Shown here piece after piece: positions 46,791-53,371 of a stretch of DNA of 64,000 nt. A program made the translations under genes and the position numbers. Numbering within the stretch: the stretch's first letter is position 1; the number at the start of each line of letters is the position of its first letter. The notes below the pieces were generated by a model. The model was not told the DNA's origin. It worked only from the letters and a program-made list of their open reading frames with translations, and ran no database searches. The DNA comes from Coriobacteriaceae bacterium AM100-PB1-1D-6A (lineage in GTDB: Bacteria > Actinomycetota > Coriobacteriia > Coriobacteriales > Coriobacteriaceae): contig JAQDNC010000003.1 in the NCBI GenBank assembly GCA_027660625.1, positions 110,886-174,885 on the forward strand, given 5' to 3'.

Positions 46791-47321
46791 TTAGGCGAGC
46801 TTGCGAGCGAGCTCTCGCACCTCTTTCAACTTGGGCGACGATGCCATGCTGTCGCGCTCGGTCATGCCACCAATCGTGACAATGCCCTGGTCCTCCCACT
46901 TGCAGTACGCGCAGGTTGACTTGTACATAGCGATCGCCGCATCATAGACACCCTCGCTGTGGCTATCGAGCAAAAGGGCCGTCTTGGTGAACGGGAAACC
47001 CGTGGCACCGAAGGCGTACAGGCGGTCGATGGCGGTCTTTTCCTGCGCAGTGATGTCAAACCAGTAGATAGGCGAAGCGAAGACAACCATGTCGGTGTCT
47101 TTCAGCGACTCAATCACGTTGGCCATGTCATCCTTCTGCACGCAGACGCCCTCATGGGCGAAGCAGTACTGGCATCCCAAGCAGCCGGCGATCTTCTTGC
47201 TGGCAACGCGGATGACCTCGACCGTATGGCCGCCCTCACGCGCGGTCTCGGCAAACGCCTCGACCATGGTATCGGTATTGGCGCCCTTACGCGGGCTGCC
47301 GCTCAATACAACGATATTCAT
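46791..47321 (-). CDS. Flavodoxin-family NAD(P)H-dependent oxidoreductase
   Basis: A 176-residue FMN reductase-like protein with SGSPRKGANTD at the phosphate-binding loop, CLGCQYCFAHEGVC (a four-Cys segment typical of this iron-sulfur flavoprotein-like group) and FASPIYWFDITAQ. Its substrate is unknown; such proteins often reduce quinones or nitro compounds. GGAGAGGG upstream fixes ATG 47321. It is a single gene in a stretch rich in redox enzymes and regulators. Confidence 0.9.
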   Translation of the reverse strand: MNIVVLSGSPRKGANTDTMVEAFAETAREGGHTVEVIRVASKKIAGCLGCQYCFAHEGVCVQKDDMANVIESLKDTDMVVFASPIYWFDITAQEKTAIDRLYAFGATGFPFTKTALLLDSHSEGVYDAAIAMYKSTCAYCKWEDQGIVTIGGMTERDSMASSPKLKEVRELARKLA

Positions 47322-47525: not shown

Positions 47526-48080
47526 TCAACTACGGGGATCGTGGCGAGCCGATACCGCCCGCATGCCTCCTTCGGAATAGGCACTGAGCAGCTCCTGGGC
47601 GTGAGCGAACTCGGGTCCCCGCCTCCAACCAAGTAGGCGGTTGACCGCGAGATTTCCCTGGACGTTGTGGACGAAGAGCAGATAGGCGTCCTCGCGCGAA
47701 AGCCCAGTCTCCTCCATGATCGAGGGAACCATCTGCTCGGCGCCGCGCTCGACGACGCGCTGTGCCACCCGGGCGTACGCGTCGTCATCCGAGTAGAGCA
47801 GATAATAGTCATCGTTTGCCGGCGGACGCTGGCAGAGGGCACCCGCCTCCGTTCCCTCGAGCGGCGGCACCGCCGCCAAGGCCTCGTCGATAAGCGCGTC
47901 GAGCAGGGCGAACTTGTCCTCGTAGTGCAGATAGAACGTGCCACGGTTGATATCGGCACGGCGGCAGATATCCGCTACCGTCATCTTCGCGAAGCCGACC
48001 TCGGCCAGCAGCGCGAAGAACGCCTCCCGTATGACCGAGAGTGTATAACGTCGGCGACGATCGATCTTCCCCGCTTCCAT
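47526..48080 (-). CDS. TetR-family regulator divergent from sirtuin genes
   Basis: A 184-residue protein with an N-terminal TetR HTH (VIREAFFALLAEVGFAKMTVADI then CRRADINRGTFYLHYEDKFALLD). The C-terminal ligand domain is of the TetR_C_7/33 kind often seen in Gram-positives (SREDAYLLFVHNVQGNLAVNRLL). GGAGGGG before ATG 48080 sets the start. It is divergently transcribed from three Sir2-like genes, with an 18-bp imperfect palindrome over their probable promoter, so it likely controls them. Confidence 0.93.
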   Translation of the reverse strand: MEAGKIDRRRRYTLSVIREAFFALLAEVGFAKMTVADICRRADINRGTFYLHYEDKFALLDALIDEALAAVPPLEGTEAGALCQRPPANDDYYLLYSDDDAYARVAQRVVERGAEQMVPSIMEETGLSREDAYLLFVHNVQGNLAVNRLLGWRRGPEFAHAQELLSAYSEGGMRAVSARHDPRS

Positions 48081-48184
48081 TACCCCTCCAATTGCAACGC
48101 TCGACAATGCCCGGCAAACGCTCGTTTATCGACAACAGGCCGAAGCTGTTCATTGCTCTTAAGCAAATCGACATGGATACTTTT

Positions 48185-48202
48185 TATAGACACCTGTTTA
48201 TA
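48185..48202 (+). promoter_or_regulatory. Candidate TetR operator over the sirtuin operon promoter
   Basis: TATAGACACCTGTTTATA is an imperfect 18-bp palindrome (7 of 9 positions match between half-sites). It overlaps TATAAT at 48199-48204, a probable -10 box 20 bp before the GTG start of the first sirtuin gene. No convincing -35 box was found. Confidence 0.5.
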
Positions 48203-48223
48203 ATAGCTGAAAGAAGGTATCCA

Positions 48224-49189
48224 GTGACCCTGTACGAGCAGCTCGTTATCGAGCTCACCAACCGATCGTTTTCCCTTCATGCCGCCTACCGCAGCGGCAG
48301 CACGCCCTATGAGCTGAGTGACCGCGAGCCCGAGCCCTACGACCAGCAAATCGAGGACTTCGCCCGTATGATCGAAGAAGCCGATTGCGTGCTGGTGGGC
48401 GGGGCCTCCGGGCTCTCCGCGGCGGGCGGCGGCGACTTCTACTACGAGGACAACGCGACCTATCGCAAGCATTTCGGCAAATTCGCCGAGCGCTACGGTT
48501 TCAAGGGCGCTTTCGAGGGGTCGTTCTACCGCTGGCCCACCGCCGAGGCGCGCTGGGGATACCTCGCCACCTTCCTCGACACCACGCTCAACGCCCCGCT
48601 GCGCAAGCCCTACAGGGACCTCGACGCCATTCTCGCCGAGAAGGATTTCTTCGTGCTCACCACCAACCAGGACACGCAGTTTGTGAAGCTCTATCCCTGG
48701 GAGAAAGTGGCAGAGATCCAAGGCGACCACCGCTTCTTTCAGTGCTCCCGCTGTTGCACCGACGCGGTGTGGGATGCGGTCGAGCCGGTCTCCAACATGG
48801 TAGAGGCCATGGGAGACGGCCTTGAGGTTCCGACAGAGCTCGTGCCGCGCTGCCCGCACTGCGGGGCAGAGGCGTTCCCCTGGGTTCGCGGCTACGGCAA
48901 CTTCCTGCAGGGCGAACTCTACGAGGAGCAGTACCGCAAGGTGTCCGAATGGCTCGACGCGCACGCACGGCAGAGGATCCTCTTCCTCGAGCTGGGTGTG
49001 GGCCGCATGACGCCCGCGTTTATCCAGGAGCCGTTCTGGGCCCTCACGGCGCAGTTACCGCAGGCCAGCTACATCGCCGTAAACAACAAGACGCAGTTTC
49101 TCCCCCGCGCGATCGAGGATCGGGGGCTCGCCGTTCGCGCCGACATCGCCGACGTGCTTGCCGACGTGCGCAAGACGCTGGGGAGGTAG
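48224..49189 (+). CDS. Sir2-superfamily protein resembling class M sirtuin (SirTM), copy 1
   Basis: 321 residues. The NAD-binding loop VLVGGASGLSAAGG is at 56-69, the second Rossmann motif VLTTNQD at 144-150, and the zinc ribbon uses C174, C177 or C178, C210 and C213. ELGVG (256-260) is the late NAD-site motif. Canonical sirtuins have a catalytic His after TQN-D; here the aligned residue is Gln166 (EIQGDH). SirTM proteins, which ADP-ribosylate lipoylated GcvH-L, share this Gln and the surrounding pattern. GTG 48224 follows AGAAGG by six bases. First of three tandem sirtuin-like genes; no lipoylation partner genes are nearby. Confidence 0.8.
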   Translation: MTLYEQLVIELTNRSFSLHAAYRSGSTPYELSDREPEPYDQQIEDFARMIEEADCVLVGGASGLSAAGGGDFYYEDNATYRKHFGKFAERYGFKGAFEGSFYRWPTAEARWGYLATFLDTTLNAPLRKPYRDLDAILAEKDFFVLTTNQDTQFVKLYPWEKVAEIQGDHRFFQCSRCCTDAVWDAVEPVSNMVEAMGDGLEVPTELVPRCPHCGAEAFPWVRGYGNFLQGELYEEQYRKVSEWLDAHARQRILFLELGVGRMTPAFIQEPFWALTAQLPQASYIAVNNKTQFLPRAIEDRGLAVRADIADVLADVRKTLGR

Positions 49190-49192
49190 CGC

Positions 49193-49891
49193 ATGGAGAC
49201 GGCGAAAGCAGTTCGCATAGGCAGGGCGCTAGCCGAAGCGGATCTTGTCATCATCGGCGCTAGCAACGGACTCGACATGGCGGAGGGGCTCAACCTTTTC
49301 TGCGCCGATGCTCATTTCCAAGAGGCGTACGGGGACCTCGCCCAGGCAGACGGCATCGGCTGCATACTGCAGGGGCTCGCTTCCCCGGATGCCAGCGTGC
49401 GACGCCGATGGGCCGAGCGGTTCCATCAAAAGGAGTATCTCGAATATGAGCCCGGCTCGCTCATGAACGGGCTGCGGCGTCTTACGGAGCACGCCGACAC
49501 CTTCGTGGTCACATGCAACATCGACGGGCACTTCGCGCGCGCCGGGTTCGACGAGAACCGCGTGCTCGAGACGGAGGGGGGCATACGCACGTCGATCGAC
49601 GAGCGGCGTCTCGCCCATCCAGACGCCCTCGCCACGGCCCAGCTCGAGGAGCTCGAGCGCCTTGTGCAAGCCCATCGCAACGGCAGGGTCGCCATCCTCG
49701 AACTTGGCGTGGGACTGCGCAACGGCATCATAAAGCACATGCTCGCCCAGATCGCGAACGTCTGCGAGCACGCCACCTACATCGTGTTCAACTACAGCCA
49801 GGCTATGGCGCCCGATGCATCGTGCGAGACGATTCTCGTTGACGGCGATATGGCCCCGGCTTTCGAGGAGATTGCCCAATGCCGTCTCTAG
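49193..49891 (+). CDS. Degenerate Sir2-like protein without zinc ribbon
   Basis: 232 residues related to its neighbours but shorter. The Rossmann parts are kept: IIGASNGLDMAEG (20-32), VVTCNIDGHF (105-114) and AILELGVGLRNG (about 164-175). The position of the catalytic His/Gln is Glu128 (LETEGG). The whole cysteine zinc module is absent; only scattered single Cys remain. It may bind NAD or a relative without the usual acyl or ADP-ribosyl transfer, or act as a partner subunit. GGGAGG lies seven bases before ATG 49193, 3 bp after the first sirtuin stop, and it overlaps the third gene by 13 bp. Confidence 0.7.
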   Translation: METAKAVRIGRALAEADLVIIGASNGLDMAEGLNLFCADAHFQEAYGDLAQADGIGCILQGLASPDASVRRRWAERFHQKEYLEYEPGSLMNGLRRLTEHADTFVVTCNIDGHFARAGFDENRVLETEGGIRTSIDERRLAHPDALATAQLEELERLVQAHRNGRVAILELGVGLRNGIIKHMLAQIANVCEHATYIVFNYSQAMAPDASCETILVDGDMAPAFEEIAQCRL

Positions 49892-50742
49892 AGAGGGAAG
49901 CGTATAGGCTTCGAAGCCTTATCGACGATGCCGACGCCATCATCGTCGGCATCGGCTCGGGCATGTCAAGCGCCGCCGGGTTCAACCATTACAACCGCGC
50001 AGGCATGGCGCGCGCCGGAATGACGGACTGGCAGCAAGCCTTTGGCTTCAAGAGCCTTTTCGACGGCTTCTACCACCTCTACCCCAGCCTCGAGCAGCGA
50101 TGGGCATACTATGCGCGATACATCGACTTCATGCTGCGCGAGCCGACCTCGCAGCCCTATCTCGACCTACGGTCCCTCATCGGCCATAAGGACTACTTCA
50201 TCCTGAGCACCAATGTGGACACCCAAGTCGAGAAGACGTTTCCCACCGAGAGGATCTGCAACTATCAGGGAAGCTTCGCGCACCTTCAGTGCAAGCAGCC
50301 ATGCTGCGACGAGCTCTTCGACGCGAGCCCCTACGTCGAGCGCATGCTCGCGGGCATGGCGGGGTTCGAGGTCCTCAGCGAGGATGTCCCCCGATGCCCG
50401 CACTGCGGCTGGCAGCTTGTGCCGTGGGTGCGCGACGACACGTTTCTGCAGGGTGCGGCCTGGCGCGAGAGCCTCGGACGATACGAGCGCTTCGTGCGCG
50501 AGCGCAGCGATCGCCGCGTGCTGTTGCTGGAGCTCGGCGTGGGCGAGATGACCCCCGGCATCATCACGCTCCCGTTCTGGAGCATGACCGCGAAGCTGCC
50601 GGATGCGCACCTTTTGAGCGTAAACATCTCGGGCGGCTCGGCTCCGTTGCAGCTCGGAAGCAAGGCAGGGGCGATCCAGGCCGATTTGGGCGCCCTGCTC
50701 TCGGTGGCGCGGACGGCGAAGGTATTTAAGCCTCCTTGTTAG
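49879..50742 (+). CDS. Sir2-superfamily protein resembling class M sirtuin (SirTM), copy 2
   Basis: 287 residues. NAD loop IIVGIGSGMSSAAG (21-34), LSTNVD (109-114), Gln130 in NYQGSF at the catalytic His position, zinc ribbon C138 with C142 or C143 and C173/C176 (RCPHCG), and LELGVGEMTPGII near 218-230. It matches the SirTM pattern, including the WQ/AFGFKSLFDGFYHLYPSLEQRW region, more closely than copy 1. GAGGAG eight bases before ATG 49879 lies inside the preceding gene. Its 3' end overlaps the convergent CMD-cupin gene by 17 bp. Confidence 0.82.
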   Translation: MPSLEREAYRLRSLIDDADAIIVGIGSGMSSAAGFNHYNRAGMARAGMTDWQQAFGFKSLFDGFYHLYPSLEQRWAYYARYIDFMLREPTSQPYLDLRSLIGHKDYFILSTNVDTQVEKTFPTERICNYQGSFAHLQCKQPCCDELFDASPYVERMLAGMAGFEVLSEDVPRCPHCGWQLVPWVRDDTFLQGAAWRESLGRYERFVRERSDRRVLLLELGVGEMTPGIITLPFWSMTAKLPDAHLLSVNISGGSAPLQLGSKAGAIQADLGALLSVARTAKVFKPPC

Positions 50743-51490
50743 TCTCTTTGAGATATTCCCCGTTGTCCACAGACTCCAACCACTCGTTGGAGGCTTCCTC
50801 GCCCGGAACCTCCAACGCGAGATGTGAGAACCAGCTGTCGGGTGCGGCTCCGTGCCAGTGCTTCACCCCTGGGGCAATGTTGACCACGTCGCCAGGGTGC
50901 AGTTTCTGCGCCGGCTTACCCCATTCCTGGTAAAACCCTCGACCAGCCACGCAGATGAGAATCTGTCCGCCGCCGTTTTTGGCGTGGTGCACGTGCCAGT
51001 TGTTGCGGCAGCCGGGCTCGAACGTCACGTTGTAGACGCCAACCTGCTCGGTTGATAGAGGCGCGAGGTAGCTTTGCCCGATAAAGTACTTCGCGAATGC
51101 GTCGTTGGGGGCACCGATGGGAAAGGCCATCTCGTTTTGGTGCTCGGCTTTTGCATCAGCGGCATCGTCATCCGCCCAGACCTCCTTTGCCATGCGGAAG
51201 GCCGCCCACGCCTTGGGCCATCCCGCATAAAACGCCGCGTGCGTAAGGATTTCCGCTATCTCCGCCCTGGTCACCCCGTTGTTCTTTGCGGACATCAGAT
51301 GATATTTAAACGAAGAGTCCGTCAGTCCCTGCGCCATCAGGGCCACAACCGTCACCACGCTGCGGTCTCGAAGGGAAAGCCCGTCTTCTCGACTCCACAC
51401 CTCGCCAAACAGCACATCGTCATTGAGCTGTGCGAACTTGGGGGCGAACTCCCCCAGGGCATCCCTGCCTGCCGTCTGTTTAATTGCCAT
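50726..51490 (-). CDS. Carboxymuconolactone decarboxylase-cupin fusion protein
   Basis: 254 residues in two domains. Residues about 20-105 are a CMD/AhpD-like helical domain (LSLRDRSVVTVVALMAQGLTD ... AEILTHAAFYAGWPKAW). It has no CxxC pair, so it is not a peroxidase of the AhpD type. Residues about 150-235 are a cupin barrel with metal His residues (NNWHVHHAKNGGGQ, GDVVNIAPGVKHWHG). Such fusions are linked to oxidoreductase clusters and may act on small carboxylates. ATG 51490 follows GGGGGAG. It is divergent from a MerR gene with a TTTAGGT palindrome between them. Confidence 0.88.
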   Translation of the reverse strand: MAIKQTAGRDALGEFAPKFAQLNDDVLFGEVWSREDGLSLRDRSVVTVVALMAQGLTDSSFKYHLMSAKNNGVTRAEIAEILTHAAFYAGWPKAWAAFRMAKEVWADDDAADAKAEHQNEMAFPIGAPNDAFAKYFIGQSYLAPLSTEQVGVYNVTFEPGCRNNWHVHHAKNGGGQILICVAGRGFYQEWGKPAQKLHPGDVVNIAPGVKHWHGAAPDSWFSHLALEVPGEEASNEWLESVDNGEYLKETNKEA

Positions 51491-52220: not shown

Positions 52221-52859
52221 CTACTTGCTCACAACCGAGATGCGCTGGGCGACGTGGTTACCGGACTCGATCTCATCGACCATGGCAATCGCATAGTCAG
52301 CGTACGAGAGCGTTGACTCGCCGCGGCTGTTGAGTGTGAACTCCTCGCCCGCCAAGATATACTCACCGGTGCGCTCGCCGTCGGCCTGGAAGTCAGCAGC
52401 AGGGGAAACGAAGGTCCATTTGAGGCCGTCCGTTTCGCGAAGGTGAGCAAGGACTTTGCCGGCCGCGGCGGACAGCGGCTTCCAGTCATCGGGGAAGTCC
52501 GGGCCCATATCGACGGTGACCGTATGCTCGGGGTTGACGAACAGCGAGCCCGCGCCACCCACTATGAGCAGGCGCACATCGGTGCCGACCAGCACATTAG
52601 CCAAGTGGATGCCCGCGTCGGTGATACCGGGGATGGTCTCGGGCGTCCAGCCGCCCACGGCGTCCACCACGGCGTCGAATCCTTCGAGGTCTTCCGTCGT
52701 GAGCTCGAGTGCGTCTTTGATGACGGAGTTCTGAGCGGCGGTCCTATTCTCGCCGCGTACGATGGCGGTCACGTCGAATCCGCGACGCACGGCCTCCTCA
52801 ACGATGAGGCTGCCGGCCCTGCCGTTCGCTGCTACAACTGCGATTTTCTTGGTCATCAT
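52221..52859 (-). CDS. NAD(P)-binding oxidoreductase (atypical SDR/NmrA-like)
   Basis: A 212-residue Rossmann protein with IAVVAANGRAGSLIVEEAVRRG at the nucleotide site, VVDAVGGW in mid-chain and KWTFVSPAADF near residue 145, as in the YwnB/atypical-5 SDR group. There is no Tyr-x3-Lys active site, as usual in this group. It could be a redox sensor or a small reductase. Two adjacent ATGs follow AAAGGA; the first is used. It is divergent from an HxlR regulator, a pairing commonly seen for this family. Confidence 0.9.
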   Translation of the reverse strand: MMTKKIAVVAANGRAGSLIVEEAVRRGFDVTAIVRGENRTAAQNSVIKDALELTTEDLEGFDAVVDAVGGWTPETIPGITDAGIHLANVLVGTDVRLLIVGGAGSLFVNPEHTVTVDMGPDFPDDWKPLSAAAGKVLAHLRETDGLKWTFVSPAADFQADGERTGEYILAGEEFTLNSRGESTLSYADYAIAMVDEIESGNHVAQRISVVSK

Positions 52860-52927
52860 GCTTTCCTTTCGACCTGCGGCACTCGCCGCCGCTTTCCTTG
52901 CAGCTCATACGATACGCGTCAAAGGTA

Positions 52928-52965
52928 TATAATGGAAAGTAGGCACATAAAAGTGCTGTAAGCAC
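52928..52965 (+). promoter_or_regulatory. Promoter box and palindrome before the HxlR gene
   Basis: TATAAT at 52928-52933 is a probable -10 box. GTGCTGTAAGCAC (52953-52965) is a perfect palindrome around GTA, next to GCAC-N6-GTGC (52943-52956), suited to a dimeric HxlR regulator. I found no good -35 box. Confidence 0.45.
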
Positions 52966-52984
52966 CAAAAGGAAACTAATGTAA

Positions 52985-53371
52985 ATGACGCGCATGATTG
53001 CAGACGGAGGTTTCGCGAACATGACAGCACCGACTTTGGAGGACCTGCCTGCCTGCCCAGTGGAGACAACGCTTTTGCTCATCGGCAACAAGTGGCAGGT
53101 GCTCATCCTGCGCGAACTCTCGCTCAGAGGCACGATGCGCTTTAAGGAGCTGCAACGCTCGATCGGCAAGATTTCGCAGAAAGTTCTGACCAGCAACCTA
53201 CGAACCATGGAGGAAACGGGGCTCGTTCATCGTGAAGCGTTCGCAGAGGTGCCCCCACGGGTGGAGTACTCGCTCACCGACCTGGGACAGACACTCAGGC
53301 CCGTTCTTGACGCAATGAGAGCTTGGGGCGAGAACTACAAGGAGCAGCTCCGCGGCGGCGGGCTTCGATAA
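52985..53371 (+). CDS. HxlR-family transcriptional regulator
   Basis: A 128-residue winged-helix protein: CPVETTLLLIGNKWQVLILREL, FKELQRSIGKISQKVLTSNL and EEVPPRVEYSLTDLG-type wing. The Cys in PACPVETT sits where several HxlR regulators sense reactive electrophiles or oxidants. The start at 52985 has AAGGA 11 bases upstream. ATG 53021 with GGAGG 10 bases upstream is equally possible and would give 116 residues. It probably regulates the divergent NAD(P)-reductase gene. Confidence 0.92.
   Translation: MTRMIADGGFANMTAPTLEDLPACPVETTLLLIGNKWQVLILRELSLRGTMRFKELQRSIGKISQKVLTSNLRTMEETGLVHREAFAEVPPRVEYSLTDLGQTLRPVLDAMRAWGENYKEQLRGGGLR

Follow-up and report, generated by a model that had tools for sequence, protein, structure and literature searches.

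A TetR-linked cassette of SirTM-like sirtuin genes without an adjacent macrodomain in a Coriobacteriaceae bacterium and its relatives

A stretch of 64,000 nucleotides from Coriobacteriaceae bacterium AM100-PB1-1D-6A (the window; contig JAQDNC010000003.1, positions 110,886 to 174,885) encodes a TetR-family regulator divergent from three tandem plus-strand genes, designated here A, B and C, all of which are related to the class M sirtuins (SirTM). Three adjacent, abutting or overlapping Sir2-like genes divergent from a TetR gene had been noted in an earlier sequence-only reading, and this arrangement is borne out by the gene reading and by the SirTM matches. Judged from sequence, we file the cassette as a macrodomain-free sister group of SirTM and not as SirTM proper, because we looked both for linkage to a macrodomain gene and for the GVGx[NT]TP motif in its exact form and found neither. 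Our leading, still tentative interpretation is that the genes encode one stress-inducible NAD-consuming enzyme, in which active A and C would work together with a non-catalytic paralogue B on a non-lipoyl target. The elements of the cassette, in window positions, are:

47526..48080, minus strand: TetR-family regulator, 184 amino acids from the ATG at 48080 (likely start); PF00440, 1.3e-11
48174..48223: putative operator/promoter region, comprising palindrome arms and a conserved block
48224..49189, plus strand: gene A, SirTM-like sirtuin with Gln166, the full active-site set, a zinc ribbon and a 37-residue N-terminal extension
49193..49891, plus strand: gene B, degenerate sirtuin paralogue of 232 amino acids, a predicted non-catalytic partner
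49879..50742, plus strand: gene C, SirTM-like sirtuin with Gln130, the full active-site set and a zinc ribbon

The GTG at 48224, preceded by GAAAGAAGG, is the most likely start of A and gives a protein of 321 amino acids; 89 of the 120 listed homologues of A measure 318–330 amino acids, and six among the closest have 360. B starts 3 bases past the stop codon of A, preceded by GGGGAGG, and overlaps C by 13 bases (49879-49891).

Relationship to SirTM and active-site residues

The SirTM of Streptococcus pyogenes (SpySirTM; PDB 5a3a) is matched by A at 4e-38, by C at 6e-37 and by B at 2e-9, so that the likeness of B to SirTM is not due to chance. The predicted structure of A (pLDDT 93.2) also has 5a3a as its best fold match, and the second-best solved relative of A and C is Mfs1 (PDB 8rsn), a SirTM fused to a macrodomain of its own. 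The Pfam model PF02146 gave no match to A, B or C up to E = 1.

The known activity of SirTM is ADP-ribosyl transfer, and mutation of Asn118, Gln137 or Arg192 in SpySirTM dramatically lowered this transfer (PMC4518038). To compare these positions we used an alignment of 76 rows, 75 of them different as near-copies are included, with B_G255, B_G151, C_G151, B_P0051N, X_G046a and X_G046b outside it and hence outside the counts for B and C. The equivalents of Asn, Asp, Gln and Arg as well as the TP are present in 24/24 rows of A; the 13 rows of C all have Asn, Asp, Gln and TP, and 12 of them Arg, the exception being G644. The 13 rows of macrodomain-paired SirTM retain Asn, Gln, Arg and NTP throughout and Asp in 12, and the catalytic His is found in all eight classical sirtuins. 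The SirTM-typical QG in place of HG is therefore common to every row of A and C, and the sequence-only reading had correctly placed Gln166, Gln130 and the zinc-ribbon cysteines of both proteins. In B, Glu replaces Gln in 17/17 rows (Glu128 in the window), and neither the equivalent of Arg192 nor the TP occurs in any of them; a smaller alignment including B_G255 and B_G151 shows Glu in these two as well. The B protein of the window lacks both GVGxxTP and the zinc ribbon, and Collinsella B proteins are without the zinc lobe.

From these residues we infer that A and C are probably active ADP-ribosyl transferases and that B is a probable non-catalytic partner. The earlier proposal of three subunits or three targets needs correction in that the three genes are not equivalent, A and C appearing active and B non-catalytic. 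Two observations weigh against this assignment. B retains Asn118 in 17/17 rows and Asp or Glu at position 120 in 16/17, which would leave room for NAD binding or even cleavage by B; and GVGx[NT]TP, a motif described as class-specific, is found in none of the three proteins, its counterpart in A and C being GVGxMTP (M in 34/37 rows, L in 3/37). Databases label some such proteins NAD-dependent deacetylase, but that they are classical deacylases is barely credible, with Gln (A, C) or Glu (B) in place of the His kept by 8/8 classical rows and NCBIfam deacylase models scoring 16–21 bits against cut-offs near 250.

Ancestry, selection and co-occurrence of the three paralogues

Each of A, B and C forms a single clade in three phylogenetic trees, with respective support of 100/99, 97/89 and 98/94 (63 rows), 100/100, 100/100 and 98/94 (67 rows) and 100/98, 100/100 and 100/96 (76 rows); B_G255 and C_G151 were left out of the smallest tree, and X_G046a, X_G046b, B_G151 and B_P0051N additionally of the two larger ones. 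Rows from both Actinomycetota and Bacillota fall in every one of these clades, and A and C are sisters in all three trees (98/93 to 99/97). Together with SpySirTM and the macrodomain pairs, the paralogues are split from the eight classical rows at 100/100 (67- and 76-row trees), and the macrodomain-paired rows cluster together (93/95, 47/95 and 88/92 in the three trees), with A, B and C outside that cluster. A recent duplication of a single gene, part of one of the two outcomes that the sequence-only reading had named as fatal to its proposal, was rejected since the copies are old clades that stay separate in all three trees. It should be noted that the unity of the cassette proteins as one lineage is less secure, as a joint A-B-C clade with support of 93/88 in the 67-row tree is broken up at 65/19 in the 76-row tree.

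The ratio of nonsynonymous to synonymous substitution rates (dN/dS) of B is 0.19–0.27 in five comparisons with dS > 0.2, next to 0.08–0.16 for A (five comparisons) and 0.25 for C (two comparisons); pairs with dS < 0.1 gave ratios of 0.4–0.7 and are too close for use. B is under purifying selection, and we rejected the idea that it is a decaying pseudogene in this lineage; the clade-wide constancy of its residues together with this selection speaks against decay.

Among 246 genomes of the Coriobacteriia, the class of the nearest genome compared (G001; 97% identity over 9.9 kb, A 100% identical, 99% complete), a class M match of some kind occurs in 90, and 12 encode an A-type protein that is complete or nearly so (at least 62% identity), counting G180, whose A lies in two frames, and leaving aside G154 with short pieces of A only. 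B shares the cassette with A in 12/12 of these (in two frames in G005); C is missing in Slackia (G246), broken in G082 and G010, and cut by the contig end in G175. The class of Clostridiaceae bacterium 1XD21-29 (G270), represented by 393 genomes, includes 81 genomes with a class M match and three with an A-type protein (62, 47 and 44% identity), each of which shares its cassette with B. The scan of related genomes suggested earlier thus finds homologues in company and not single or scattered. C was not seen in the cassette loci of Slackia, Bacillales and Lactobacillaceae; by this locus survey A and B are the core of the cassette.

The genes are arranged as A-B-C in Collinsella, Hugonella and locus L103, as A-C-B in L104-L108 and G644, as B-C-A in G255, G014 and G209, and as C-B-x-A in G527, where C is only an 83-residue piece. 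Fusions join B to A (B-A in P0038 and P0051) and C to B (C-B in P0330). The constant company under a shuffled order, together with the fusions, suggests that the proteins form a physical unit. P0002, where A continues into a nearly identical second piece of itself, probably arose in assembly and was set aside; Collinsella-type B proteins cut in two where the zinc lobe is missing were not taken as fusions, and some other small pieces look like frameshifts. The additional gene between B and A in G527 (L190:5710-6105) encodes a C_GCAxxG_C_C putative redox-active protein (PF09719).

The nearest precedent for cooperating sirtuin paralogues would be FAM118A and FAM118B, a pair that processes NAD markedly faster once the two members come together and in connection with which antiphage sirtuins are named (PMC12700824). 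Unlike the cassette, this pair is vertebrate, is close to antiphage sirtuins and has His active sites that matter in both members; any homology of the two as pairs would be conjectural. Whether a sirtuin pseudo-subunit can control NAD use in bacteria, in the way that the human FAM118 paralogues boost each other, could be tested clearly on this cassette.

Company is not kept everywhere, and the cassette decays in places: G151 has B and a remnant of C without an intact A, and B of G005 and A of G180 are each spread over two frames, all of which counts against our leading interpretation. Separately, at the chromosomal site corresponding to that of the cassette, between ParC and MerR genes, two other Collinsella genomes hold only remnants (L088/L109 in G012; L085/L111 in G019): a C piece of 124 amino acids and a frame of 467 amino acids with a B piece. 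A second, decayed cassette copy in G001, G005 and G175 (L077:11080-14048, L076:7577-8237 and L159) comprises a diverged TetR and an A piece of 61 to 62 residues, with a piece of C in addition in G005. Hugonella massiliensis, a member of another family, carries TetR-A-B at 91.5% nucleotide identity plus genes for a carboxymuconolactone decarboxylase (CMD)-cupin and MerR (L102:4316-10285); this shared set suggests transfer as a block. We found no fair housekeeping yardstick for this transfer, the best match of ParC being 35% and probably no orthologue. A phage or virus origin was rejected on a search made for A only, in which relatives of A in phage and viral collections amounted to two partial records and one locus.

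Partners of the lipoylation-linked SirTM system

The only target known for SirTM is a lipoylated carrier, and the targets of other SirTMs are stated to be open (PMC11490716). The sequence-only reading held that all partner genes of that system are missing here. A scan of ten window genes surrounding the cassette indeed revealed no gene for GcvH-L, LplA2 or a macrodomain, and in those loci whose comparison included a macrodomain query none lies beside the cassette. To extend this genome-wide we searched the genomes of relatives, and not that of the window itself: 20 cassette genomes comprising G001, G005, G007, G008, G010, G014, G027, G082, G175, G180, G209, G246, G255, G269-G273, G527 and G644. 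GcvH was confirmed in 0/20; partial GCV_H matches occur in four, of which the three examined are biotin carrier proteins and the fourth is in G027. PF03099 was searched for in 7/20, six of these genomes having one match each, all biotin ligases, and G027 having none. Macro (PF01661) is absent from nine of the 20 (G001, G005, G007, G008, G010, G180, G209, G271 and G527); the same search recovered a macrodomain beside SirTM in G019, G021, G038, G039, G043, G046, G050 and G055, which served as positive control. In the nearest genome, G001, neither Macro nor GcvH was found, and its one PF03099 protein is a biotin ligase, in answer to the suggested scan for a distant partner set.

An ordinary SirTM system with GcvH-L, LplA2 and a macrodomain encoded elsewhere in the genome, to which the shared Gln and fold might point, is most improbable and was rejected: GcvH is unconfirmed throughout the relatives, the PF03099 proteins of six are biotin ligases, Macro is lacking in 9/20, and the A, B and C clades lie apart from macrodomain-paired SirTMs. 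The absence of partners and the clade and linkage results support the earlier idea of an NAD-using cassette separate from lipoylation, but the claim that the partners are missing stands only in part, as Macro occurs somewhere in 11/20 cassette genomes (once as a weak 36-bit match, in the 72% complete G027) and ADP_ribosyl_GH (PF03747) in 12/20, so that an eraser may act in trans. Two clusters are recorded as individual observations: in G644, at a distance of about 2 kb from B, a gene for an ADP-ribosylglycohydrolase (L191:5553-6644; PF03747, 1e-39) that is a possible eraser, and two Macro domains plus one ADP_ribosyl_GH domain inside 3 kb in G269 (G269:C80:7447-10270).

Compared with known systems, the cassette resembles the SirTM of S. 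pyogenes and Staphylococcus aureus (5a3a; PMC4518038) in fold and NAD motifs and, for A and C, in the Gln for His, Arg192 and the zinc ribbon; it differs in lacking linked macrodomain, GcvH-L and LplA2 genes, in GVGxMTP, in its three paralogues with one degenerate, and in its separate clades. With the minimal macrodomain/SirTM pairs (PMC11490716; here for example G019, G105, L248) it shares the superfamily, redox-type neighbours and, in L248, Rrf2, whereas each such pair is one SirTM plus its eraser, against two or three SirTM-like genes and no adjacent eraser in the cassette. L248, a row from an Enterococcus casseliflavus plasmid, encodes by annotation Rrf2, a short-chain dehydrogenase/reductase (SDR) oxidoreductase, a protein-ADP-ribose hydrolase, SirTM, a pyridoxamine oxidase-like protein and NUDIX. 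A description of a macrodomain-free multi-SirTM cassette was not found in the literature by titles and abstract openings, a search outside which most subscription papers lie. New in this analysis are the degeneracy of B, the division into three old clades and the links to NAD-salvage and HD genes.

Regulation, neighbouring genes and possible NAD recycling

A palindrome over the promoter had been noted earlier, and its arms are present (TGGATACTTT at 48174-48183 and AAGGTATCCA at 48214-48223); in the G008 type both arms carry matching changes, in Hugonella they deviate by one letter, and in Slackia they are not kept. The stronger feature is the block at 48176-48201, GATACTnTTTATrrACACnTGTTnAT with the core ACACCTGT (48190-48197), which is conserved upstream of A in 11/11 aligned TetR loci including Slackia, several of these intergenic sequences being near-identical. 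A scan of the upstream region for the sigma-70 consensus found none. A homologous TetR lies beside A in Hugonella and Slackia, and on a Lactiplantibacillus plantarum plasmid 1.2 kb upstream (4.7e-34), past an IS30 transposase. Rrf2 is found near the cassette in L103-L108, G014, G209, G151 and G527 (identified through Pfam in L103, L104, G014 and G527 and through similarity elsewhere), and four Rrf2 proteins examined have one cysteine in common, in NPxCGVG, which may act as a redox sensor. The drug- or stress-sensing TetR switch proposed earlier is plausible for this operon, and many Bacillota loci carry Rrf2 in its place. G644 and G255, with neither regulator directly beside the cassette, do not fit such a switch; the two Bacillales loci have, upstream, a gene for an uncharacterised helix-turn-helix protein. 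Upstream of Rrf2 in L104 there is also a FeoA-FeoB ferrous iron transporter (L104:1865-4246), with homologues likewise placed in L105, L107 and L108.

The cassette of the window is flanked by the following genes:

46791..47321, minus strand: NADPH-dependent flavin mononucleotide (FMN) reductase-like flavoprotein, adjoining TetR; PF03358, 3.8e-23
50726..51490, minus strand: CMD-cupin, convergent, with a 17-base overlap with the 3' end of C; PF02627, 2.9e-23, and PF07883, 7.3e-7

The FMN reductase gene adjoins TetR also in G001, G007 and G175, with a distant version in Slackia, and is a possible but unproven associate of the cassette. The same may hold for the CMD-cupin, close homologues of which follow the cassette in G008, G010 and G027, and one gene further on in Hugonella. 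With MerR, NmrA-like and HxlR genes, these make up the redox- or xenobiotic-type neighbours in the window. The NmrA-like and HxlR genes (52221-53371) lie about 1.5 kb past the cassette and have homologues near macrodomain/SirTM pairs in L089, L091, L092 and L157, which makes a lost macrodomain/SirTM pair possible at this site.

Other lineages have different neighbours. On plasmids of > 500 kb in Paenibacillus sp. 37 and Mesobacillus foraminis, A and B are followed, in this order, by genes for an HD protein, a nicotinate phosphoribosyltransferase and an isochorismatase-family hydrolase, the last in Mesobacillus being a gene for 152 amino acids past a small gene; the Bacillales nicotinate phosphoribosyltransferase exceeds its own NCBIfam cut-off. 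In L104, L105, L107 and L108 the order A-C-B is followed by an HD gene. That of L104 encodes HD and a nicotinamidase-like half in one protein (1ilw at 1.5e-12 and 3o90 at 1.1e-7, each annotated as nicotinamidase, other cysteine hydrolases ranking between them), the HD/nicotinamidase frame of L107 is split, and for L105 and L108 the HD part alone was found. HD domains are moreover fused before C in P0306 and P0309 (46–47% identity to that of L104) and after C in P0321 (53%). Levilactobacillus and Lactiplantibacillus plasmids carry A and then a fusion of B with an additional part, which Pfam identifies as a cupin in Lactiplantibacillus, with a TetR gene near; a Pediococcus locus is known by annotation only. 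These two-gene loci on food Lactobacillaceae plasmids are small systems for target hunting.

The HD and nicotinamide genes may serve NAD recycling, a role that would fit with an enzyme consuming NAD. Against this stand the scores of the nicotinamidase-like proteins, 37–41 bits versus an NCBIfam nicotinamidase cut-off of 174, though nicotinamidase is the best Bacillales match, and the absence of salvage genes from the window neighbourhood in a Pfam scan.

Under our preferred reading, a stress-inducible enzyme of A, C and B, the operon would be kept silent by TetR bound to the conserved block that precedes A, and induced once a small molecule or a redox signal made TetR let go. NAD+ cleavage by A and C would follow, with nicotinamide set free and the ADP-ribose transferred to an acceptor other than lipoylated GcvH-L; B would be a non-catalytic assembly or gating subunit with a replaced active site. 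With no macrodomain adjacent, the product might persist, be set free as ADP-ribose or be cleared by a different hydrolase, and elsewhere the nicotinamidase-like enzyme, nicotinate phosphoribosyltransferase and HD hydrolase could recycle both halves of the spent NAD. A bolder version, possible but rather doubtful, would make A+B(+C) an unrecognised cross-phylum NAD-cycling machine, a heteromeric class M-like sirtuin in which Glu-for-Gln B switches the active subunit on, NAD is spent on a dedicated modification and rebuilt by the linked nicotinamidase, nicotinate phosphoribosyltransferase and HD hydrolase, and control lies with TetR or a thiol/redox Rrf2, with no macrodomain eraser. The cassette is a sister system of SirTM across Actinomycetota and Bacillota, in genomes without confirmed GcvH, with a conserved degenerate partner and seemingly its own NAD recycling in some lineages.

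The salvage-type genes beside A-B in the two Bacillales plasmids and the nicotinamidase-like gene after A-C-B in L104 could belong to a complex that is mainly an NAD glycohydrolase with water as acceptor, by which the operon would tune or turn over the NAD pool under stress and salvage would close the cycle; the lack of a fixed acceptor-gene or macrodomain neighbour among the loci read also fits. We consider this unlikely, given that A and C retain the Gln137 and Arg192 that serve transfer in SirTM, and the salvage genes do not discriminate, because ADP-ribosyl transferases release nicotinamide too. TetR control, the FMN reductase, CMD-cupin and MerR neighbours, the absence of a linked eraser and the B-cupin fusion on a Lactobacillaceae plasmid would suit detoxification, with A and C ADP-ribosylating a TetR-sensed xenobiotic or other small molecule permanently and with no need of an eraser. 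This is decidedly unlikely, as Rrf2 and not TetR is nearby in 7/13 Bacillota loci (L103-L108, G527) and the SirTM fold acts on a protein in the single case tested (PMC4518038).

Patchy distribution and carriage on plasmids raise the question of defence. Other SIR2-type proteins drain NAD upon phage infection, and the cassette might do likewise. We regard this as very unlikely: PADLOC gave no match for A, B or C up to E = 1, which a distant relation may escape, the partners are TetR/Rrf2 regulators and salvage genes and not toxin-like proteins, and hardly any relatives of A occur in the phage and viral collections.

A variant outside A, B and C was also observed: L086 (G046:C76) holds two divergent, long-branch SirTM-like genes near a homologue of the HD-nicotinamidase of 439 amino acids.

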